Origin: an uncultured Mucispirillum sp.
GTDB taxonomy: Bacteria > Chrysiogenota > Deferribacteres > Deferribacterales > Mucispirillaceae
Direction of reading: 5' to 3'
NCBI GenBank assembly: GCA_944326705.1
Contig: CALVEY010000015.1
Coordinates: 1-56,566, forward strand
Length of the DNA stretch: 56,566 bases
Below the pieces are notes generated by a model. It was not told the DNA's origin and did no database searches. It saw only the letters and a list, made by a program, of their open reading frames with translations. Positions 2,150 through 48,357 of this stretch are shown here, piece by piece. Both the position numbers and the translations under genes were made by a program. The stretch's first letter is position 1. Every line of letters starts with the position of its first letter.

Positions 2150-4693
2150 ATGGAAAGACCAAAAAATGTTACGCCGGCAATGGCGCAGTTTTATGATATA
2201 AAAGAGCAGTATCCAGATTCTATTCTTTTTTTCCGTATGGGTGATTTTTATGAAATGTTTGGAGATGATGCTCTTACGGCTTCTAAAATATTAGGTATTG
2301 CTCTTACCTGCCGTAATAAATCATCAGAAAATCAGATACCTTTATGCGGCATACCTTACCATTCTTATATGCCATACCTTGTAAAGCTTTTAAAGGCAGG
2401 AAAAAAAGTGGCAATATGTGAGCAGTTAGAAGACCCTAAAATGGTTAAAGGTGTTGTAAAAAGAGGTGTTACTAGAGTTGTTACTCCTGCAACAGCAATA
2501 GAAGATGAAGCAGTTGTTACTTTTGATAATAACTTTTTAGTAAGCCTTTATGCTGAACTTGATAAAGTATATGCAGCGGCAGTTGATGTAACTACTGGCG
2601 AAACTTATTTAAAAACTATACCAGTAGATACTTTAGAAGAAAATACTTATTCAATGGAAGCAAAGGAAGTTATTGCAAATATTGATATAGATATAAATAA
2701 TATACCTGTAACTATAAGAAATCCTGGAAAACATTATAACACAGCATTAAACAGAGTGCTTACCCATTATTCTGTTACAAGTGAAAAAGCATTATTTATT
2801 GAAGATAAAGGCTATATCTGGGCGCTTGCTATGATACTAGATTATCTTGATGACTTAATACTTACCACAAAGCTTATGCTGCCTGTTACATTAAATGATA
2901 CTGATAACTTAATAATAGACAGTGTTGCTTCTTCCACATTAGAGCTTACAAACTCTACTGCAGGAAAAGATAATACATTATTTTACATTCTTAACCAGAC
3001 ATCAACGCCTATGGGTGCAAGGTTTTTAAAAAATACAATCACAAGACCTTTAAGAAATGCTGCTCAGATTAATACAAGGCTTGATATAGTAGAATACTTT
3101 ATAAATAATCCGTCATTTTTAAGCACAGTTAATGGTCTTTTATCTAATATATTTGATATAGAGCGTATTACATCAAGACTTATTTCTGGCAGGGCTACAC
3201 CAAAAGATTTAATATGGCTTAAATTATCTATTAAAAATATTCCAGAGCTTGATGCTATGCTTCAGTCTGTGCCAGATATTTTTGCAAAGTATAAGCTTGA
3301 TTCTCAGGAAGAACTTTATTTTTTAATTGAAAAATCAATAAATGATGAGCCCCCTGCAGCTATTAAAGAAGGCGGTATTATAAAAAGCGGATATAACAGC
3401 CATGTAGATGAGCTTAGAGATATTAAGCATAACGGCAAATCGTTAATATTAGAGATAGAAGAAAGAGAAAGGAAAGCAACAGGCATAAGTCAGCTGAAAA
3501 TTGGCTATAACAAAGTGTTTGGATATTATTTTGAAGTTTCAAGGATAAATGCTCCAAAAATGCCGTCATACTTTGAAAGAAAGCAGACTCTTGCAAACAG
3601 TGAGCGTTTTATTACAGAAGAATTAAGAGAGCTTGAAAATAAAATATTAAATGCAGAAGAAAAGCTTGCAGATATTGAATATTCTTTATTTCAGGATATA
3701 AGAAAGTATGCTTCAAGCAAGGCAGAAAATTTAAGGCAGCTTGCAAAACTTATTGCAGAGATTGATACTATTGCAGCTTTTGCAAATATAAGTATAAAAA
3801 ATAACTACAGCCGTCCAAAAATAGTAGAAAATGGTATAATAAATATAAAAGAAGGCAGACACCCTGTTGTAGAAAATAAAAGTAAAGATGCTTTTGTGCC
3901 AAATGATTTTTACTTAGATAACGACGAAAACAGGCTTTTAATTATAACAGGGCCTAATATGAGCGGTAAAAGTACATATCTTCGCTCCAGCGCATTAATT
4001 GCTGTTATGGCACACTGTGGCTGTTTTGTGCCTGCTGAAATGGCAGAAATACCACTGCTTGACAGGATTTTTACACGGGTTGGCGCAAGTGATAACCTTT
4101 CCCGCGGTGAATCTACTTTTATGGTGGAAATGGTAGAGACTGCCAATATTTTAAAAAATGCTACAAAAAATTCTCTTATTATACTTGATGAGATAGGCAG
4201 GGGCACATCTACTTTTGATGGTATTTCTATTGCCTGGGCAGTGGCAGAACATATATTAAATAATATTGGTGCAAAAACATTATTTGCTACCCATTATTTT
4301 GAGCTTACAGAAATAGGTGAAAAAGGCAAAGGTGCACAAAACTATACTGTAAGCGTAGAAGAATGGAATAATGAAGTAATATTTTTAAGAAAAGTTATAA
4401 AAGGCACAGCTGATAAAAGCTATGGTATATATGTAGGTAAAATGGCAGGACTTCCTGAAAGTGTAATAAAAAGAGCAAACGAAGTGCTTTCTGATTTAGA
4501 AAACCATGAAGATATTGCACTTATGCAGGAAAAAGAGCAGCCTAAGCATAAACAAAGATTTGTGCAGCCTATACTTGTTTTTGATGATTCTCACCCTGTA
4601 ATAGATGAGCTTAAATCTATGGATGTAGATAATATTACACCTATACAGGCTGTGCAGATTTTATCTGAATTAAAGAAAAAAGCACTTCAATAA
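2150..4693 (+). CDS. mutS: DNA mismatch repair protein MutS
   Basis: 847 residues, full length for MutS1. The N-terminal mismatch-binding domain has the Phe-x-Glu signature (GDFYEMFGDDA, near residue 35). The C-terminal ATPase carries Walker A GPNMSGKST (about 600-608) and Walker B LIILDEIGRGTSTFDG (about 675-690). It recognises mispairs and starts excision repair with MutL. It follows the lapB-like gene by 17 bases on the same strand. The state of mismatch repair matters here because it affects the slippage rate of the poly-C promoters elsewhere in the window. Confidence 0.97.
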   Translation: MERPKNVTPAMAQFYDIKEQYPDSILFFRMGDFYEMFGDDALTASKILGIALTCRNKSSENQIPLCGIPYHSYMPYLVKLLKAGKKVAICEQLEDPKMVKGVVKRGVTRVVTPATAIEDEAVVTFDNNFLVSLYAELDKVYAAAVDVTTGETYLKTIPVDTLEENTYSMEAKEVIANIDIDINNIPVTIRNPGKHYNTALNRVLTHYSVTSEKALFIEDKGYIWALAMILDYLDDLILTTKLMLPVTLNDTDNLIIDSVASSTLELTNSTAGKDNTLFYILNQTSTPMGARFLKNTITRPLRNAAQINTRLDIVEYFINNPSFLSTVNGLLSNIFDIERITSRLISGRATPKDLIWLKLSIKNIPELDAMLQSVPDIFAKYKLDSQEELYFLIEKSINDEPPAAIKEGGIIKSGYNSHVDELRDIKHNGKSLILEIEERERKATGISQLKIGYNKVFGYYFEVSRINAPKMPSYFERKQTLANSERFITEELRELENKILNAEEKLADIEYSLFQDIRKYASSKAENLRQLAKLIAEIDTIAAFANISIKNNYSRPKIVENGIINIKEGRHPVVENKSKDAFVPNDFYLDNDENRLLIITGPNMSGKSTYLRSSALIAVMAHCGCFVPAEMAEIPLLDRIFTRVGASDNLSRGESTFMVEMVETANILKNATKNSLIILDEIGRGTSTFDGISIAWAVAEHILNNIGAKTLFATHYFELTEIGEKGKGAQNYTVSVEEWNNEVIFLRKVIKGTADKSYGIYVGKMAGLPESVIKRANEVLSDLENHEDIALMQEKEQPKHKQRFVQPILVFDDSHPVIDELKSMDVDNITPIQAVQILSELKKKALQ

Positions 4694-5126: not shown

Positions 5127-5264
5127 CGGTGTTTTAAAAAAATGGGGTGAAGCAGTAAAAAGACACTCTTTGTCGCTTATATATAATATTTATATAGTAG
5201 AGATAATAATGAAATATTTACCACACATTATTATTTTAGAATATTTAAGTTTTCAAAAATATAC

Positions 5265-5294
5265 TTGACATTTAAACTCTTAAATGACTAGAAT
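5265..5294 (+). promoter_or_regulatory. Probable promoter of the lipoprotein/outer-membrane operon
   Basis: TTGACA at 5265-5270 and TAGAAT at 5289-5294 are separated by 18 bp. The start codon of the lipoprotein is at 5320 behind AGGAGGA. Unlike the three poly-C promoters, the spacer here is mixed sequence of near-normal length. Confidence 0.55.
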
Positions 5295-5319
5295 TGTCAT
5301 AGTATTTTTAGGAGGATTT

Positions 5320-8291: not shown

Positions 8292-8471
8292 CTTATAAAT
8301 ATTTTTAAACTCTGCACTTTATACTCTCTACATGCCCCTGCAGGTTTTCATGTTCTGCCATTGTGATAATATCATCACTTCCTGCCTGTAAAGCTGCTTT
8401 ATTATAATAAATAATACTTGAACGCTTAAAAAAATCATAAGTGCCAAGTGGTGAGAAAAATTTTACACTTC
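8292..8471 (-). pseudogene. hisD 3'-end fragment (copy A)
   Basis: The minus strand encodes a near-copy of about the last 55 residues of HisD, including FFSPLGTYDFFKRSSIIYY, a single-residue change to NKAALQAGSDD, and the terminal QGHVESIKCRV. The intact gene is at 11042-12310. Homology starts upstream of the stop codon region and breaks off near 8471, where an AT-rich sequence shared only with copy B begins. It has no start codon or upstream HisD sequence, so it is a remnant. A 77-codon frame (8305-8538) only reads through it. Confidence 0.9.
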
Positions 8472-8610
8472 CTTTTTTATTTTTACATAATTTTTTAAAA
8501 AAAATTATGCAAAAAGTTATTATAAAATCTATAAACATTTACAGCACATTAAGCAGCAGCTTATAAGATTTTATAAATTTAATAATAATTTTTTAAAAAA
8601 ACTTGACATT
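8292..8610. repeat. 0.32-kb direct repeat, copy A
   Basis: The hisD fragment plus an AT-rich stretch and the promoter -35 region are nearly identical to 10013-10331. Shared landmarks are TTATGCAAAAAGTTATTATA, CAGCACATTAAGCAGCAGC and the run into ACTTGACATT. The repeats differ by scattered substitutions and small indels in A/T runs. Confidence 0.9.
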
Positions 8611-8629
8611 CCCCCCCCCATGATATAAT
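8603..8629 (+). promoter_or_regulatory. Poly-C spacer promoter (C9), probably phase-variable
   Basis: TTGACA at 8603-8608 and TATAAT at 8624-8629, with an extended -10 TG at 8621-8622. The spacer is 15 bp and holds an uninterrupted C9 run (8611-8619). The optimal spacer of 17 bp would need C11. Slippage in such a run is the known on/off mechanism for neisserial porA and opc. It drives the lipoprotein gene at 8661. Confidence 0.75.
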
Positions 8630-10012: not shown

Positions 10013-10191
10013 CTTATAAATATTTTAAACTCTGAATTTTACACTGTTTGCATGCCCCTGCAGGTTTTCATTTTCTGCCATTGTGATAATATCATCACTT
10101 CCTGCCTGTAAAGCTGCTTTATTATAATAAATAATGCTTGAACGCTTAAAAAAATCATAAGTGCCAAGTGGTGAGAAAAATTTTACACTTC
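10013..10191 (-). pseudogene. hisD 3'-end fragment (copy B)
   Basis: A second remnant of the last 55 or so HisD codons on the minus strand, preserving the FFSPLGTYDFFKRSS region and the C-terminal sequence. It is closer to the intact hisD (11030-11208) than copy A at its 3' end: GAATTTTACACTGTTTGCAT versus the native GAATTTTATACTGTTTGCAT. Homology to hisD stops at about 10191, at the same point as copy A. That identical breakpoint shows that both fragments descend from one duplication junction. Confidence 0.9.
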
Positions 10192-10331
10192 CTTTTTTAT
10201 TTTTACATAATTTTTAAAAAAAATTTATGCAAAAAGTTATTATAAAATCTATAAACATTTACAGCACATTAAGCAGCAGCTTATAAGATTTATAAATTTA
10301 ATAATAATTTTTTTAAAAAAAACTTGACATT
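10013..10331. repeat. 0.32-kb direct repeat, copy B
   Basis: Near-identical to 8292-8610. Upstream, the homology between this copy and the native hisD locus extends further, through the GAGCCAG terminator (9963 and 10980) and the TTTAAAATCAGTTA linker. The repeated unit was therefore promoter, lipoprotein gene, terminator and hisD 3' end. Confidence 0.9.
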
Positions 10332-10349
10332 CCCCCCCCGTGCTAAAAT
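10324..10349 (+). promoter_or_regulatory. Poly-C spacer promoter (C8), probably phase-variable
   Basis: TTGACA at 10324-10329 and TAAAAT at 10344-10349, with TG at 10341-10342. The spacer is 14 bp with a C8 run (10332-10339), one C fewer than the promoter at 8603. It drives the lipoprotein gene at 10400. Confidence 0.7.
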
Positions 10350-10399: not shown

Positions 10400-10960
10400 A
10401 TGAAGAAATTTTTAATGCCATTTTTTATGGCTTTAATTGTTGCAGCACTAGCAGGTTGTGCTGATAATAATAATGATGGCGGTTCCAGCGTGCCATCATA
10501 TGATTTAAGCAATATAGCAACAGATGAAAATATAACAACTGTAGAAGCTACTCGCGATACATATGCATGGGGTTATATGTCTCTTACAAATCCAAGAATA
10601 GCATCAGGTCAATACTATCCGATACTGTTAAGCACATCTATGGGTATCCACCCTTCTTTTAAAGCAACATTATCATCTGATTATAATGCTGATACATTAA
10701 ATGGAGACCTTACTATTGGCAACAAAAATTATGATTTAAGCAGTGCTGCATCTATGACTAATAGTGGGAGTGGGAGATATCATTTAGCAATTGAAGGACA
10801 AACTATTCCAAATGACGGCACTATACTTATTGTATTTTTAACACGAGATGAAGAAGAACAGTATTTTGGCAATATAGAAGCTATTGACCAAACAGTTATT
10901 AATCGGTTAAATGAATTAGGTGCGTTAAGACAGTATAAATGGACTAAATCTGCTAATTAA
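10400..10960 (+). CDS. Putative lipoprotein, single copy of an unnamed NPR/LGALRQYKW domain
   Basis: 186 residues. The signal peptide ends in LAGC; the next residue is Ala. After a short Asn/Gly/Ser linker comes one domain of about 140 residues with landmarks YAWGYMSLTNPR, YYPILLS, GDLTIGNKNYD, RYHLAIEG, ILIVFLTRDEEEQYF and LNELGALRQYKW. The same domain occurs twice in the lipoprotein at 47215. I do not recognise it as a named family. An outer-membrane-anchored, probably surface, role is inferred from the lipobox and the poly-C promoter. GGAG lies 9 bases before the ATG. Confidence 0.8.
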   Translation: MKKFLMPFFMALIVAALAGCADNNNDGGSSVPSYDLSNIATDENITTVEATRDTYAWGYMSLTNPRIASGQYYPILLSTSMGIHPSFKATLSSDYNADTLNGDLTIGNKNYDLSSAASMTNSGSGRYHLAIEGQTIPNDGTILIVFLTRDEEEQYFGNIEAIDQTVINRLNELGALRQYKWTKSAN

Positions 10961-44882: not shown

Positions 44883-46220
44883 GTGGCAGAATATGATGTT
44901 ATAATTGCAGGGGCTGGGCTTGCTGGCAGTGAAGCAGCTTATCAGCTGGCAGAAAAAGGTTATAAAGTAAATCTTATAGAAATGAGGCCTTTAAAAACTA
45001 CACCAGCCCATGAAACAGATAAATTTGCAGAGCTTGTATGCTCTAACAGCTTAAAATCGTTAGATATTACAACAGGAAGCGGGCTTTTAAAAAAAGAAAT
45101 GATGCTTTATAACTCTTTTCTTATGCAGACAGCTCTTAAATGCAGCGTGCCTGCAGGTGGTGCTTTAGCTGTTGACAGGGTTTTATTTTCTAATATTATT
45201 ACTGATGCTGTAAATAGTCATAAAAATATCACTGTTACAAATAAAGAAATTACAGAACTTCCTATAAATACAGATATTCCATTTCTTATTGCTACAGGGC
45301 CGCTTACAAGTGACACTTTAGCTGAAAACATAAAAGAATACTGTGGCGGAGCACTATACTTTGCTGATGCTATAAGCCCTATTATAGATGCAGATACTAT
45401 TGATATGGAAAAAGGATATTTCCTTGGCAGATACGGCAAGGGCGGCGATGATTATTTTAATATTCCTTTAACTGAAGAAGAATATAATACATTTTATGAT
45501 GATATAATGGCTGCTCCAAAAACAGCTTTTCATGATTTTGAAAAAATATCATATTTTGAAGGCTGTATGCCTGTAGAAGTTATGGCAGAAAGAGGCAGGC
45601 AGACTTTAACTTTTGGACCTATGAAACCTGTGGGACTTGAAAATCCTGAAACAAATATCCGCCCTTATGCTGTAATACAACTTAGAAAGGAAAATAAAGA
45701 AGGCACAGCATTTAATATGGTAGGCTTTCAAACAAAAATGACAATAGGTGCACAAAAGGAAATATTTAGAAAAATTCCCGCTTTAAAAAATGCAGAATTT
45801 TTAAGATTTGGCTCAGTCCATAGAAATACATATATAGAAAGTCCAAAACATATTTCAAGATACTTTAATTTTAACAGCAATAAAAACTTATTTATTGCAG
45901 GCCAGATTACAGGGCTTGAAGGATATAATGAATCTATTGCAGGGGGCTTAATGGCATCGCTGCAGATAGCAAGACTTTTAGAAAATAAACCATTTTTAGA
46001 TTTCCCAACTGGTACAGCTATGGGGAGCTTATCAGAATATATTTCTGGAATATCTGAATTTTCTAACGGCAAAAAATATGTGCCTTCTAACTTTCATCTT
46101 GGAATGCTACCGCCCCTTGAAAAGAAAGTGCGGGATAAAAAACTGAAAAAACAAATGCAGGTAGAAGCTGCATACAAAAAGGCAGAATTATTTTATAAAG
46201 AAAATTATGGAAATAGATAA
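44883..46220 (+). CDS. trmFO: Methylenetetrahydrofolate-tRNA-(uracil-5-)-methyltransferase
   Basis: 445 residues from a GTG at 44883 with AAAGGA upstream. The FAD-binding start is DVIIAGAGLAGSEAAYQLAE, and the TrmFO signatures MRP...TPAHETDKFAELVCSN, DRVLFSNIIT and QITGLEGYNESIAGG are present. It makes 5-methyluridine at position 54 of tRNA using methylene-THF and FADH2. It overlaps xerC by 14 bases. Confidence 0.95.
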   Translation: MAEYDVIIAGAGLAGSEAAYQLAEKGYKVNLIEMRPLKTTPAHETDKFAELVCSNSLKSLDITTGSGLLKKEMMLYNSFLMQTALKCSVPAGGALAVDRVLFSNIITDAVNSHKNITVTNKEITELPINTDIPFLIATGPLTSDTLAENIKEYCGGALYFADAISPIIDADTIDMEKGYFLGRYGKGGDDYFNIPLTEEEYNTFYDDIMAAPKTAFHDFEKISYFEGCMPVEVMAERGRQTLTFGPMKPVGLENPETNIRPYAVIQLRKENKEGTAFNMVGFQTKMTIGAQKEIFRKIPALKNAEFLRFGSVHRNTYIESPKHISRYFNFNSNKNLFIAGQITGLEGYNESIAGGLMASLQIARLLENKPFLDFPTGTAMGSLSEYISGISEFSNGKKYVPSNFHLGMLPPLEKKVRDKKLKKQMQVEAAYKKAELFYKENYGNR

Positions 46221-47124
46221 CGCAATAGAAGAATTTATAAATTTTGTCCGCGTAGAAAGAGAATACAGTGAACACTCTGTTACAGCATACGCAAAAGATT
46301 TAAGCGAGCTTTCTATTTATGCTCACGATGAAAAAGTGCCTGATGATGTAAAATCCCTTGATTTTTTCACACTTCGCGGCTTTATTACTACTCTTTATGA
46401 CAGAGAGTTATCAAAATCCAGCATTGAAAGAAAAATATCTACTATTAAATCATTTTTTAAATTTTTATACAGGCGGGGATTTATAGAAGAAAACCCTGCC
46501 CGTATGCTTAAATTTCCTAAAAAAGAAAAATATCTGCCTACTGTTTTTAATGTAGATGATATTTTTACACTTTTAGATTTGCCAGATAAAACTACACCTA
46601 TGGGTATGCGTGACGCTTTAATTTTAGAGCTTTTATATGGCACAGGCGTCCGTGTTTCTGAACTTGTAGGGCTTGATAGAAGTGCAGTTGATTTAAACGG
46701 TATGCGCATACTTGTGCGTGGTAAAGGCAAAAAAGAAAGGATTGTGCCACTTGCTCCAGAGCTTATCTCTCTTATTAAAGATTATTATAAAGTAATGTAT
46801 GATATTGTTGCAGATAACAGGATAGTAGACAGCGATGCACTAATTATAAACAGACTTGGCACACGCATGACAGATAGAACAGTGAGAAGAGTAGTGGAAA
46901 CATATCTGAAAAAAGCAGGGCTTCCACTAGATTACTCACCCCACTCTTTCAGGCACACTTTTGCAACCCACTTATTAGAGGGCGGTGCAGATTTACGCTC
47001 TATTCAAGAGCTTTTAGGCCATGAATCACTTGCCACTACACAAAAATATACCCACAGCGATTTAGCATCACTTTTAAAAGTGTATGATGAATCTCACCCT
47101 ATGGCAAAAAAAGATAACCAGTAA
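46207..47124 (+). CDS. xerC: Tyrosine recombinase XerC/XerD type
   Basis: 305 residues. An N-terminal SAM-like domain is followed by a catalytic domain with the Arg in GTGVRVSELVGL, the His-x-x-Arg in SPHSFRHTFATHLL, the LGHESLATTQKYTH block with His and the nucleophilic Tyr, and the RGKGKKERIVPL beta-hairpin lysine. It resolves chromosome dimers at dif. The position after trmFO matches the usual xerC context, where hslVU often follows; here a lipoprotein gene follows instead. Confidence 0.92.
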   Translation: MEIDNAIEEFINFVRVEREYSEHSVTAYAKDLSELSIYAHDEKVPDDVKSLDFFTLRGFITTLYDRELSKSSIERKISTIKSFFKFLYRRGFIEENPARMLKFPKKEKYLPTVFNVDDIFTLLDLPDKTTPMGMRDALILELLYGTGVRVSELVGLDRSAVDLNGMRILVRGKGKKERIVPLAPELISLIKDYYKVMYDIVADNRIVDSDALIINRLGTRMTDRTVRRVVETYLKKAGLPLDYSPHSFRHTFATHLLEGGADLRSIQELLGHESLATTQKYTHSDLASLLKVYDESHPMAKKDNQ

Positions 47125-47157: not shown

Positions 47158-47182
47158 TTGACATTCCCCCCCATGATATGAT
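47158..47182 (+). promoter_or_regulatory. Poly-C spacer promoter (C7), probably phase-variable
   Basis: TTGACA at 47158-47163 and TATGAT at 47177-47182, with TG at 47174-47175. The spacer is 13 bp with a C7 run (47166-47172). The design, including the TT before and ATGA after the C run, matches the promoter at 8603 although the loci are 38 kb apart. Confidence 0.7.
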
Positions 47183-47214
47183 GGGGACACAAATTATGAA
47201 AAAGGAGATATTTT

Positions 47215-48357
47215 ATGAAAAAATCTTTATTATCAATTTTATTAGCAGCATTTCTTGCTTTAATATCAGGCTGTGCTGATGACACAAAAAATACAGGAAC
47301 AAGTGGTGGTTCATCTAATATTGAAAGTATTCCTGCTGGTGATGAAATAAAATTAGAAAAACATCAAAATAATTACGCATGGGCTTATGCAGACCTTACA
47401 AACCCAAGAAAAGAACAAGGAACATACTATCCTATACTGATAAGTAATCTTATGGGGTTATATAATTATAATACACTATTAACATCTACATACAAAGTTG
47501 ATAACTCTGATGGGGACCTTACATTAGGAAATAAAAATTATGATATAGACGGAGCAACATCTTTAAATAATAGTGGAACTACTAGATATCATTTAGCATT
47601 TACTGACGGCAGTATTCCAACTAAAGGAACAATAGTAATTGCATTTCTTACTAAAGAGGAAGAAAATAAGTTTTTTAATATAGAACTAGTAGATGGCAAA
47701 CTACCTCAATCTTTAATTGATGAATTAAATCAATTAGGAGCATTAAGACAATATAAATGGGCAACTGATACAGGCACTGGTGGAAGTAGTAATGCAGGGG
47801 GCCTGCCAGCAGAAAATATTCCTGTAGATGAAACTACAGTATATGAATTTACTAAAAAATATTACCAAGTTTATAGTATAGAAGTAAGAAACCCAAGACA
47901 AGATGTTTCTGAACCAATATATCCTGTATTAATAAGCCAGGCTTTAGGGTTAGAAGGTGGTGAAACTGACCTTACTCAATATGGCTTTGGTATTGTTAAA
48001 GGTGTGAAATATTTCGCACACTTTGCCAGTCAAAGTTATTTAAGTCAGTCAAAAACACCAGACCTTACATTTTGTAGAAATCCATCAGAAACTGTTCTTA
48101 ATATAACAAGTACAAATGGATTTATGAATTCTGAAGAAAAGAAAACTTACTATATATCATTTGAGGAATGGAACGACCCAGTTATGCCGTCTGAAGGATA
48201 TCTTTTATTTGCTTTTCTTACAGCAGAAGAAATACAAAAATATTTTCCAAGTAAAGACATTATTGACCCATTTGCAAAAAAATATTTAGACAGCACTGTT
48301 ATTGATGAACTTAAAAACCTTGGTGCATTAAAACAATATAAATGGACAGCCAAATAA
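47215..48357 (+). CDS. Putative lipoprotein with two copies of the NPR/LGALRQYKW domain
   Basis: 380 residues. The signal peptide ends in an ISGC lipobox; AAAGGAGA precedes the ATG. Domain 1 (about 45-185) closely follows the 10400 lipoprotein: YAWAYADLTNPR, YYPILIS, GDLTLGNKNYD, TRYHLAFTDG, LNQLGALRQYKW. After a Gly/Ser/Thr linker, domain 2 (about 205-378) is a divergent copy: VYSIEVRNPR, IYPVLISQALGL, LLFAFLTAEEIQKYF, LKNLGALKQYKW. Function unknown. The C7 promoter points to a variably expressed surface protein. Confidence 0.82.
   Translation: MKKSLLSILLAAFLALISGCADDTKNTGTSGGSSNIESIPAGDEIKLEKHQNNYAWAYADLTNPRKEQGTYYPILISNLMGLYNYNTLLTSTYKVDNSDGDLTLGNKNYDIDGATSLNNSGTTRYHLAFTDGSIPTKGTIVIAFLTKEEENKFFNIELVDGKLPQSLIDELNQLGALRQYKWATDTGTGGSSNAGGLPAENIPVDETTVYEFTKKYYQVYSIEVRNPRQDVSEPIYPVLISQALGLEGGETDLTQYGFGIVKGVKYFAHFASQSYLSQSKTPDLTFCRNPSETVLNITSTNGFMNSEEKKTYYISFEEWNDPVMPSEGYLLFAFLTAEEIQKYFPSKDIIDPFAKKYLDSTVIDELKNLGALKQYKWTAK

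Follow-up and report, generated by a model that had tools for sequence, protein, structure and literature searches.

A poly-C spacer promoter recurs ahead of lipoprotein genes in Mucispirillum and points to phase variation of the cell envelope

The promoter at 47158 and its counterparts in the window

We analyzed 56,566 nucleotides from an uncultured Mucispirillum sp. (assembly GCA_944326705.1, contig CALVEY010000015.1, positions 1 to 56,566; hereafter the window), with a focus on a short element at 47158–47182 that lies between a XerC-like recombinase gene and a lipoprotein gene (Table 1). The element reads TTGACATTCCCCCCCATGATATGAT, which matches exactly the arrangement TTGACA-TT-C7-ATGA-TATGAT that an earlier note on this DNA had placed before the lipoprotein gene. 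Judging from these letters, it is likely to be a sigma-70-type promoter in which most of the spacer between the −35 and −10 hexamers is a homopolymeric C tract. The promoter ends 33 bp upstream of the lipoprotein reading frame, which starts at 47215 and is preceded by AAGGAG at 47202–47207. Given the spacing imposed by seven Cs, the gene is predicted to be off or very weakly expressed in this assembly. The first domain of its product resembles the lipoprotein encoded at 10400, and the second resembles the single domain of its ortholog in a sister species (G004). Sequence searches against Pfam and PDB with the lipoproteins encoded downstream of such tracts, including this one, returned zero matches, and an AlphaFold model of the 47215 protein (built from two sequences) has a mean predicted local distance difference test (pLDDT) score of 52.8, which is too low for a structure search.

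Table 1. Coordinates of the features in the window
Feature	Position	Strand	Details
mutS (MutS1), intact	2150..4693	+	mismatch repair retained
Poly-C spacer promoter, C9	8603..8629	+	tract 8611-8619; -10 TATAAT; spacer 15 bp
Lipoprotein gene, 421 amino acids	8661..9926	+	MTAC lipobox; family shared with tract-promoter genes of G000:C35, G001, G008
Poly-C spacer promoter, C8	10324..10349	+	tract 10332-10339; -10 TAAAAT; spacer 14 bp
Lipoprotein gene, 186 amino acids	10400..10960	+	ALAGC lipobox
XerC-like tyrosine recombinase gene	46207..47124	+	directly 5' of the 47158 promoter; anchors synteny with the G004 ortholog
Poly-C spacer promoter, C7	47158..47182	+	-35 TTGACA 47158-47163; TT; tract 47166-47172; ATGA; -10 TATGAT 47177-47182; spacer 13 bp
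Lipoprotein gene, 380 amino acids	47215..48357	+	lipobox LISGC, Cys20; two homologous domains in tandem

Across both strands of the window, C runs of at least 6 occur only three times, and all three lie between TTGACA and a −10-like hexamer, 5' of lipoprotein genes. The pattern TTGACATTCCCC..TGATAT has two matches, compared with 0.00 expected in shuffled sequence. As the earlier note had described, the 8603 and 47158 promoters share their fixed bases on both sides of the tract (TT and ATGA), whereas their flanks diverge beyond approximately 25 bp upstream; in both, T6–7A6–7 stands just before CTTGACATT. Not every lipoprotein gene in the window uses this module, because one of them is preceded (5264–5309) by a promoter with a TTGACATT −35 and an 18-bp spacer without a C tract.

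A standard promoter design across the genus

The genome to which the window belongs (G000; 2.39 Mb in 79 contigs) was compared with nine congeneric genomes; one Mucispirillum relative, G002, is a single contig. The pattern TTGAC-C7+-TANNNT matches in 9 of the 10 Mucispirillum genomes, at 3–13 sites per genome, compared with 0–2 for a reversed-pattern control. In a sister genus, represented by one genome (G043), there are 7 promoter-type matches, including one overlapping pair, while four genomes of a second sister genus have none and the remainder of the order yields only one weak match. Among the named-database matches to the 27-bp design are nine Mucispirillum contigs, each with C9 and a 15-bp spacer. 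In a wide contig scan, matches outside Mucispirillum are mostly C6–C7 and fall in unrelated lineages; they served only as a yardstick for spacers and to name the genus, and in viral contigs the tracts are mostly C6, with no clear Mucispirillum design found.

A set of 70 promoter-type tracts from nine genomes, 68 of them usable in spacer and lipoprotein counts, defines a consensus of C-TTGACA, 1–4 bases, C9, usually ATGA, and TATAAT; the −10 is extended by a TG, and the upstream DNA is rich in A. The tract is C9 in 53/70 cases, which corresponds to a spacing of 15 bp. As such, the run lengths of 9, 8, and 7 to which the earlier note drew attention are indeed those of the three promoters in the window, but they are atypical of the class. 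The non-C bases of the spacer add up to 6 in 51/68 promoters, even though their partition around the tract varies (e.g. TT+ATGA, ATT+GTG, AAAT+GT, and AAT+GTT). None of 20,000 permutations of the spacer parts reaches this count, and the excess persists when only unique combinations of preceding and following bases are used, which lowers the weight of shared descent (P = 0.003). A total that stays at 6 while its partition varies argues for selection on the total spacing.

The same data bear on whether the promoters are simply cassette copies that spread by duplication or recombination, such that their shared design reflects descent and not selection for switching. Some copying is evident, as the 8603 and 10324 promoters are preceded by near-identical DNA for more than 300 bp (8300–8610 vs. 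10020–10331), which indicates local duplication of a promoter together with its upstream DNA, and an A/T-rich upstream region and the CTTGACATT core are common to several promoters. However, most promoters have only the core in common, 33 different combinations of bases surround the tract while different partitions keep the sum of 6, and copying does not explain changes in tract length. We therefore regard cassette spread, which is compatible with phase variation, as quite unlikely to be the explanation.

Lipoprotein genes lie downstream of 47/68 tract promoters (lipoproteins being called by a lipobox rule, and families by all-against-all BLAST). The downstream genes form approximately 32 families, of which 19 are lipoprotein families; these are unrelated to one another and dispersed, rather than paralogs of one family at one locus. 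Under the same rule, 22 of 726 proteins encoded in 800 kb of G002 are lipoproteins, and because one of them carries a tract, the comparison was made with 21/725. The enrichment is significant by Fisher's test (P ~1e-18 by family, and 3e-7 within G000 alone). The genome-wide pattern search thus places matches in front of genes, with the strong bias toward lipoproteins that the earlier note had anticipated, and its view of a design placed before several lipoprotein genes extends to the whole genus. Its notion of a lipoprotein regulon holds only in part: approximately 30% of tract promoters drive non-lipoproteins, some of which are small membrane proteins or begin with a Sec signal peptide, and the promoters belong to a broader set of poly-C/G tracts, others of which lie within genes.

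Tract length and the case for phase variation

The window's genome contains 38 C/G runs of at least 7, almost all exactly 9 long, and G002 contains 54 (length 7, n = 5; 8, n = 6; 9, n = 33; 10, n = 8; 11, n = 2). Within 800 kb of G002, counts fall from 10 at length 6 to 2 at length 7 and 0 at length 8, with a separate peak of 12 at length 9. Tract length is therefore above chance expectation, as in phase variation by simple sequence repeats in promoter spacers—i.e. 35 runs of at least 9 are observed per genome where composition predicts 0.23. Promoter spacers make up about one-fifth to one-quarter of all tracts, and many of the remainder are G9 runs within coding sequences, where the upstream and downstream frames are joined in some cases and not in others (G000 and G002). 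Several of these genomes are fragmented assemblies, and errors in homopolymer length are common in sequencing, which would be the grounds for dismissing the tracts as artefacts of assembly or as chance low-complexity DNA. This is extremely unlikely given the excess over prediction and the presence of such tracts in single-contig G002 and in independently assembled named Mucispirillum genomes; it is excluded for the presence of the tracts, though not for the exact length in any one assembly.

We consider the most probable reading to be promoter-spacer phase variation by strand slippage, of the type known from Neisseria fetA and porA, deployed as a standard module that stands mostly before lipoprotein genes. 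Slipped-strand mispairing within a population would add or remove single Cs, change the distance between the −35 and −10 hexamers, and thereby alter transcription of the downstream gene. Spacers of 13, 14, and 15 bp (C7, C8, and C9) all fall below an optimum of 16–17 bp, and from this spacing C9 would be weak, C8 and C7 weaker, and C10–C11 strong. Most of the promoters would then probably be low or off by default, with the gain of one or two Cs (16–17 bp) raising expression, while a few with 19 bp at C9 would switch in the opposite direction. With one module before many unrelated genes, each cell lineage would express its own mix of envelope proteins. Combinatorial surface variation, as proposed earlier for this DNA, can thus be reasonably inferred, assuming that the products are displayed at the surface and that the variation would benefit the cell.

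Spacing data agree with a promoter that is short by default. The same motif in other bacteria has its spacing peak at 16–18 bp (81/109), compared with 15 bp in Mucispirillum, and promoters without tracts in 800 kb of G002 show their strongest enrichment over shuffled sequence at 16–17 bp, albeit with small counts. Spacer lengths estimated from perfect hexamer pairs in G000 did no better than the control and were set aside.

Orthologs also reveal differences in length. In G004, the ortholog of the 47158 promoter lies beside the same xerC-like gene and has C9 instead of C7, while its surroundings are virtually unchanged (0/130 differences upstream and 1/70 downstream), so that the two sister-species alleles, otherwise alike, differ in the length of the tract. 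The tract at 10324 is C8 in both the window and G004, and C9 in G009. The G004 ortholog of the 47215 gene has the same promoter and signal peptide but only the second domain, the window protein having an extra N-terminal domain; it appears that mature lipoprotein domains come and go while the promoter ahead of them stays the same.

Several observations weigh against phase variation. Tract length is equal in 27/32 aligned promoter pairs (5/32 differ), lengths vary less, given the strong C9 mode, than might be expected if tracts switched freely, and both MutS and MutL are intact. Furthermore, support for the 16–17 bp optimum within the genus comes from low counts, set against an AT-rich and noisy background in which 12 and 14 bp also exceed the shuffles. 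The first two of these would suit a C9 run that is a fixed promoter element—e.g. the site of a dedicated regulator, or a means by which DNA shape tunes a 15-bp promoter—in an ordinary regulon that does not vary by phase, as would the good conservation of the extended −10 TG and of the C before TTGACA. The equal lengths of most aligned pairs would be explained by a mutational equilibrium at 9, but also by a fixed element. A fixed element nonetheless seems unlikely, since 9-base tracts also occur in unrelated coding sequences, in mixed frames, where promoter function is not expected, tract lengths range from 7 to 11 in G002, the 47158 ortholog differs only in its tract, and the position of the tract within the spacer is variable.

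As for mismatch repair, mutL is on G000:C5, and MutS and MutL are found in nearly all genomes, including G000. Loss of mismatch repair was rejected as a source of the long tracts, both genes being present; with mutS intact, tract instability would need to arise in the presence of repair.

Known systems and the wider tract repertoire

In Neisseria fetA/frpB and porA, the −35 and −10 are separated by a tract of poly-C or poly-G (Carson 2000; van der Ende 1995, as cited in PMC5320596). The Mucispirillum module is similar to these in having a homopolymer between recognizable −35 and −10 hexamers, length differences between strains, and envelope proteins as downstream products (outer-membrane proteins in Neisseria). 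For both, the geometry leads to the proposal of a graded effect on transcription. For Neisseria, three transcriptional cases are listed in a single gonococcal strain, and their promoters differ from case to case (PMC5320596); by contrast, Mucispirillum uses one standard promoter up to ~13 times per genome, before unrelated lipoprotein genes and with a sharp C9/15-bp mode. The fim2, fim3, and fimX genes of Bordetella also have promoters with C-stretches, where length affects transcription of surface-structure genes (PMC1891110). Unlike those promoters, which serve fimbrial genes only, the Mucispirillum module has a good −35 hexamer and no identified activator site. In Mycoplasma hyorhinis, the Vlp lipoproteins form one clustered paralogous family with a poly-A tract in or near each promoter and combinatorial expression. 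Several lipoprotein genes with promoter tracts are thus found in both organisms, but in Mucispirillum the tracts are poly-C and the genes are dispersed among ~19 unrelated families.

Campylobacter jejuni NCTC11168 has 29 poly-G/C tracts of at least 7 (PMC4965091). Mucispirillum is comparable in the number and length of its G/C tracts and, like this species, is a mucus-dwelling gut bacterium with many intragenic tracts in and out of frame; it differs from Campylobacter, where tracts lie mostly on reading frames, in its large promoter class and in retaining MutS and MutL. To our knowledge, MutS1/MutL mismatch repair is absent from contingency genomes of the Campylobacter/Helicobacter type.

Literature searches for Mucispirillum with phase variation or homopolymeric tracts returned nothing relevant, and the same was true for the phylum Deferribacterota in the literature searched; the M. 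schaedleri genome paper does not mention phase variation (PMC5285517). As far as this literature shows, the mechanism is already known, while its scale, standardization, and host are new, what is unusual being that a commensal reuses one standard module ahead of unrelated lipoprotein genes. Mucispirillum is a core bacterium of mouse-gut mucus with 38–54 candidate tracts per genome and a uniform promoter class. If the switching is confirmed, the envelope composition of this standard gnotobiotic mouse commensal, its interaction with phages or immunity, and possibly its respiration would vary at random from cell to cell and from one experiment to another. Because the promoters are so uniform, they also offer a natural series for relating spacer length to transcription.

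Among the intragenic tracts, members of a family of molybdopterin oxidoreductases of ~700 amino acids with a twin-arginine (Tat) signal and a lipobox (dimethyl sulfoxide reductase-like; PF00384) have G8–G10 tracts near the export signal, mostly just after it. These loci (L164, L165, L166, L167, L170, L172, and L182 in G000; L273, L280, L283, and L305 in G002), some in frame and some out, are candidates for phase-variable anaerobic respiration. An HsdS type I restriction specificity gene (PF01420; L160:1417-2574 on G000:C8) has a G9 tract in frame, and a similar gene in G002 (L276) has a G8 tract out of frame, making both candidates for phase-variable methylation. MBOAT-type O-acyltransferase genes (L156 and L162 in G000; L285 and L289 in G002) have G9 tracts in frame and are candidates for phase-variable modification of surface glycans; this assignment comes from Pfam for L156 and from N-terminal similarity for the other three.

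Taken to its full extent, the proposal would be that Mucispirillum and a sister genus possess a standard, interchangeable phase-variable promoter (CTTGACA-N2-C9-ATGA-TATAAT) that is 2 bp short by default and was placed independently before ~20 unrelated envelope genes. Each cell would then express a random combination of lipoproteins, with respiratory reductases and a DNA-modification specificity gene additionally switched by reading frame, and the repertoire would be among the larger phase-variable ones despite intact mismatch repair; we see the chances of this extended version as evenly balanced. Elsewhere in the order, G034 and G037, from another family, have 65 and 17 C/G runs of at least 9 but lack the promoter design; these runs may form an independent repertoire of contingency loci.
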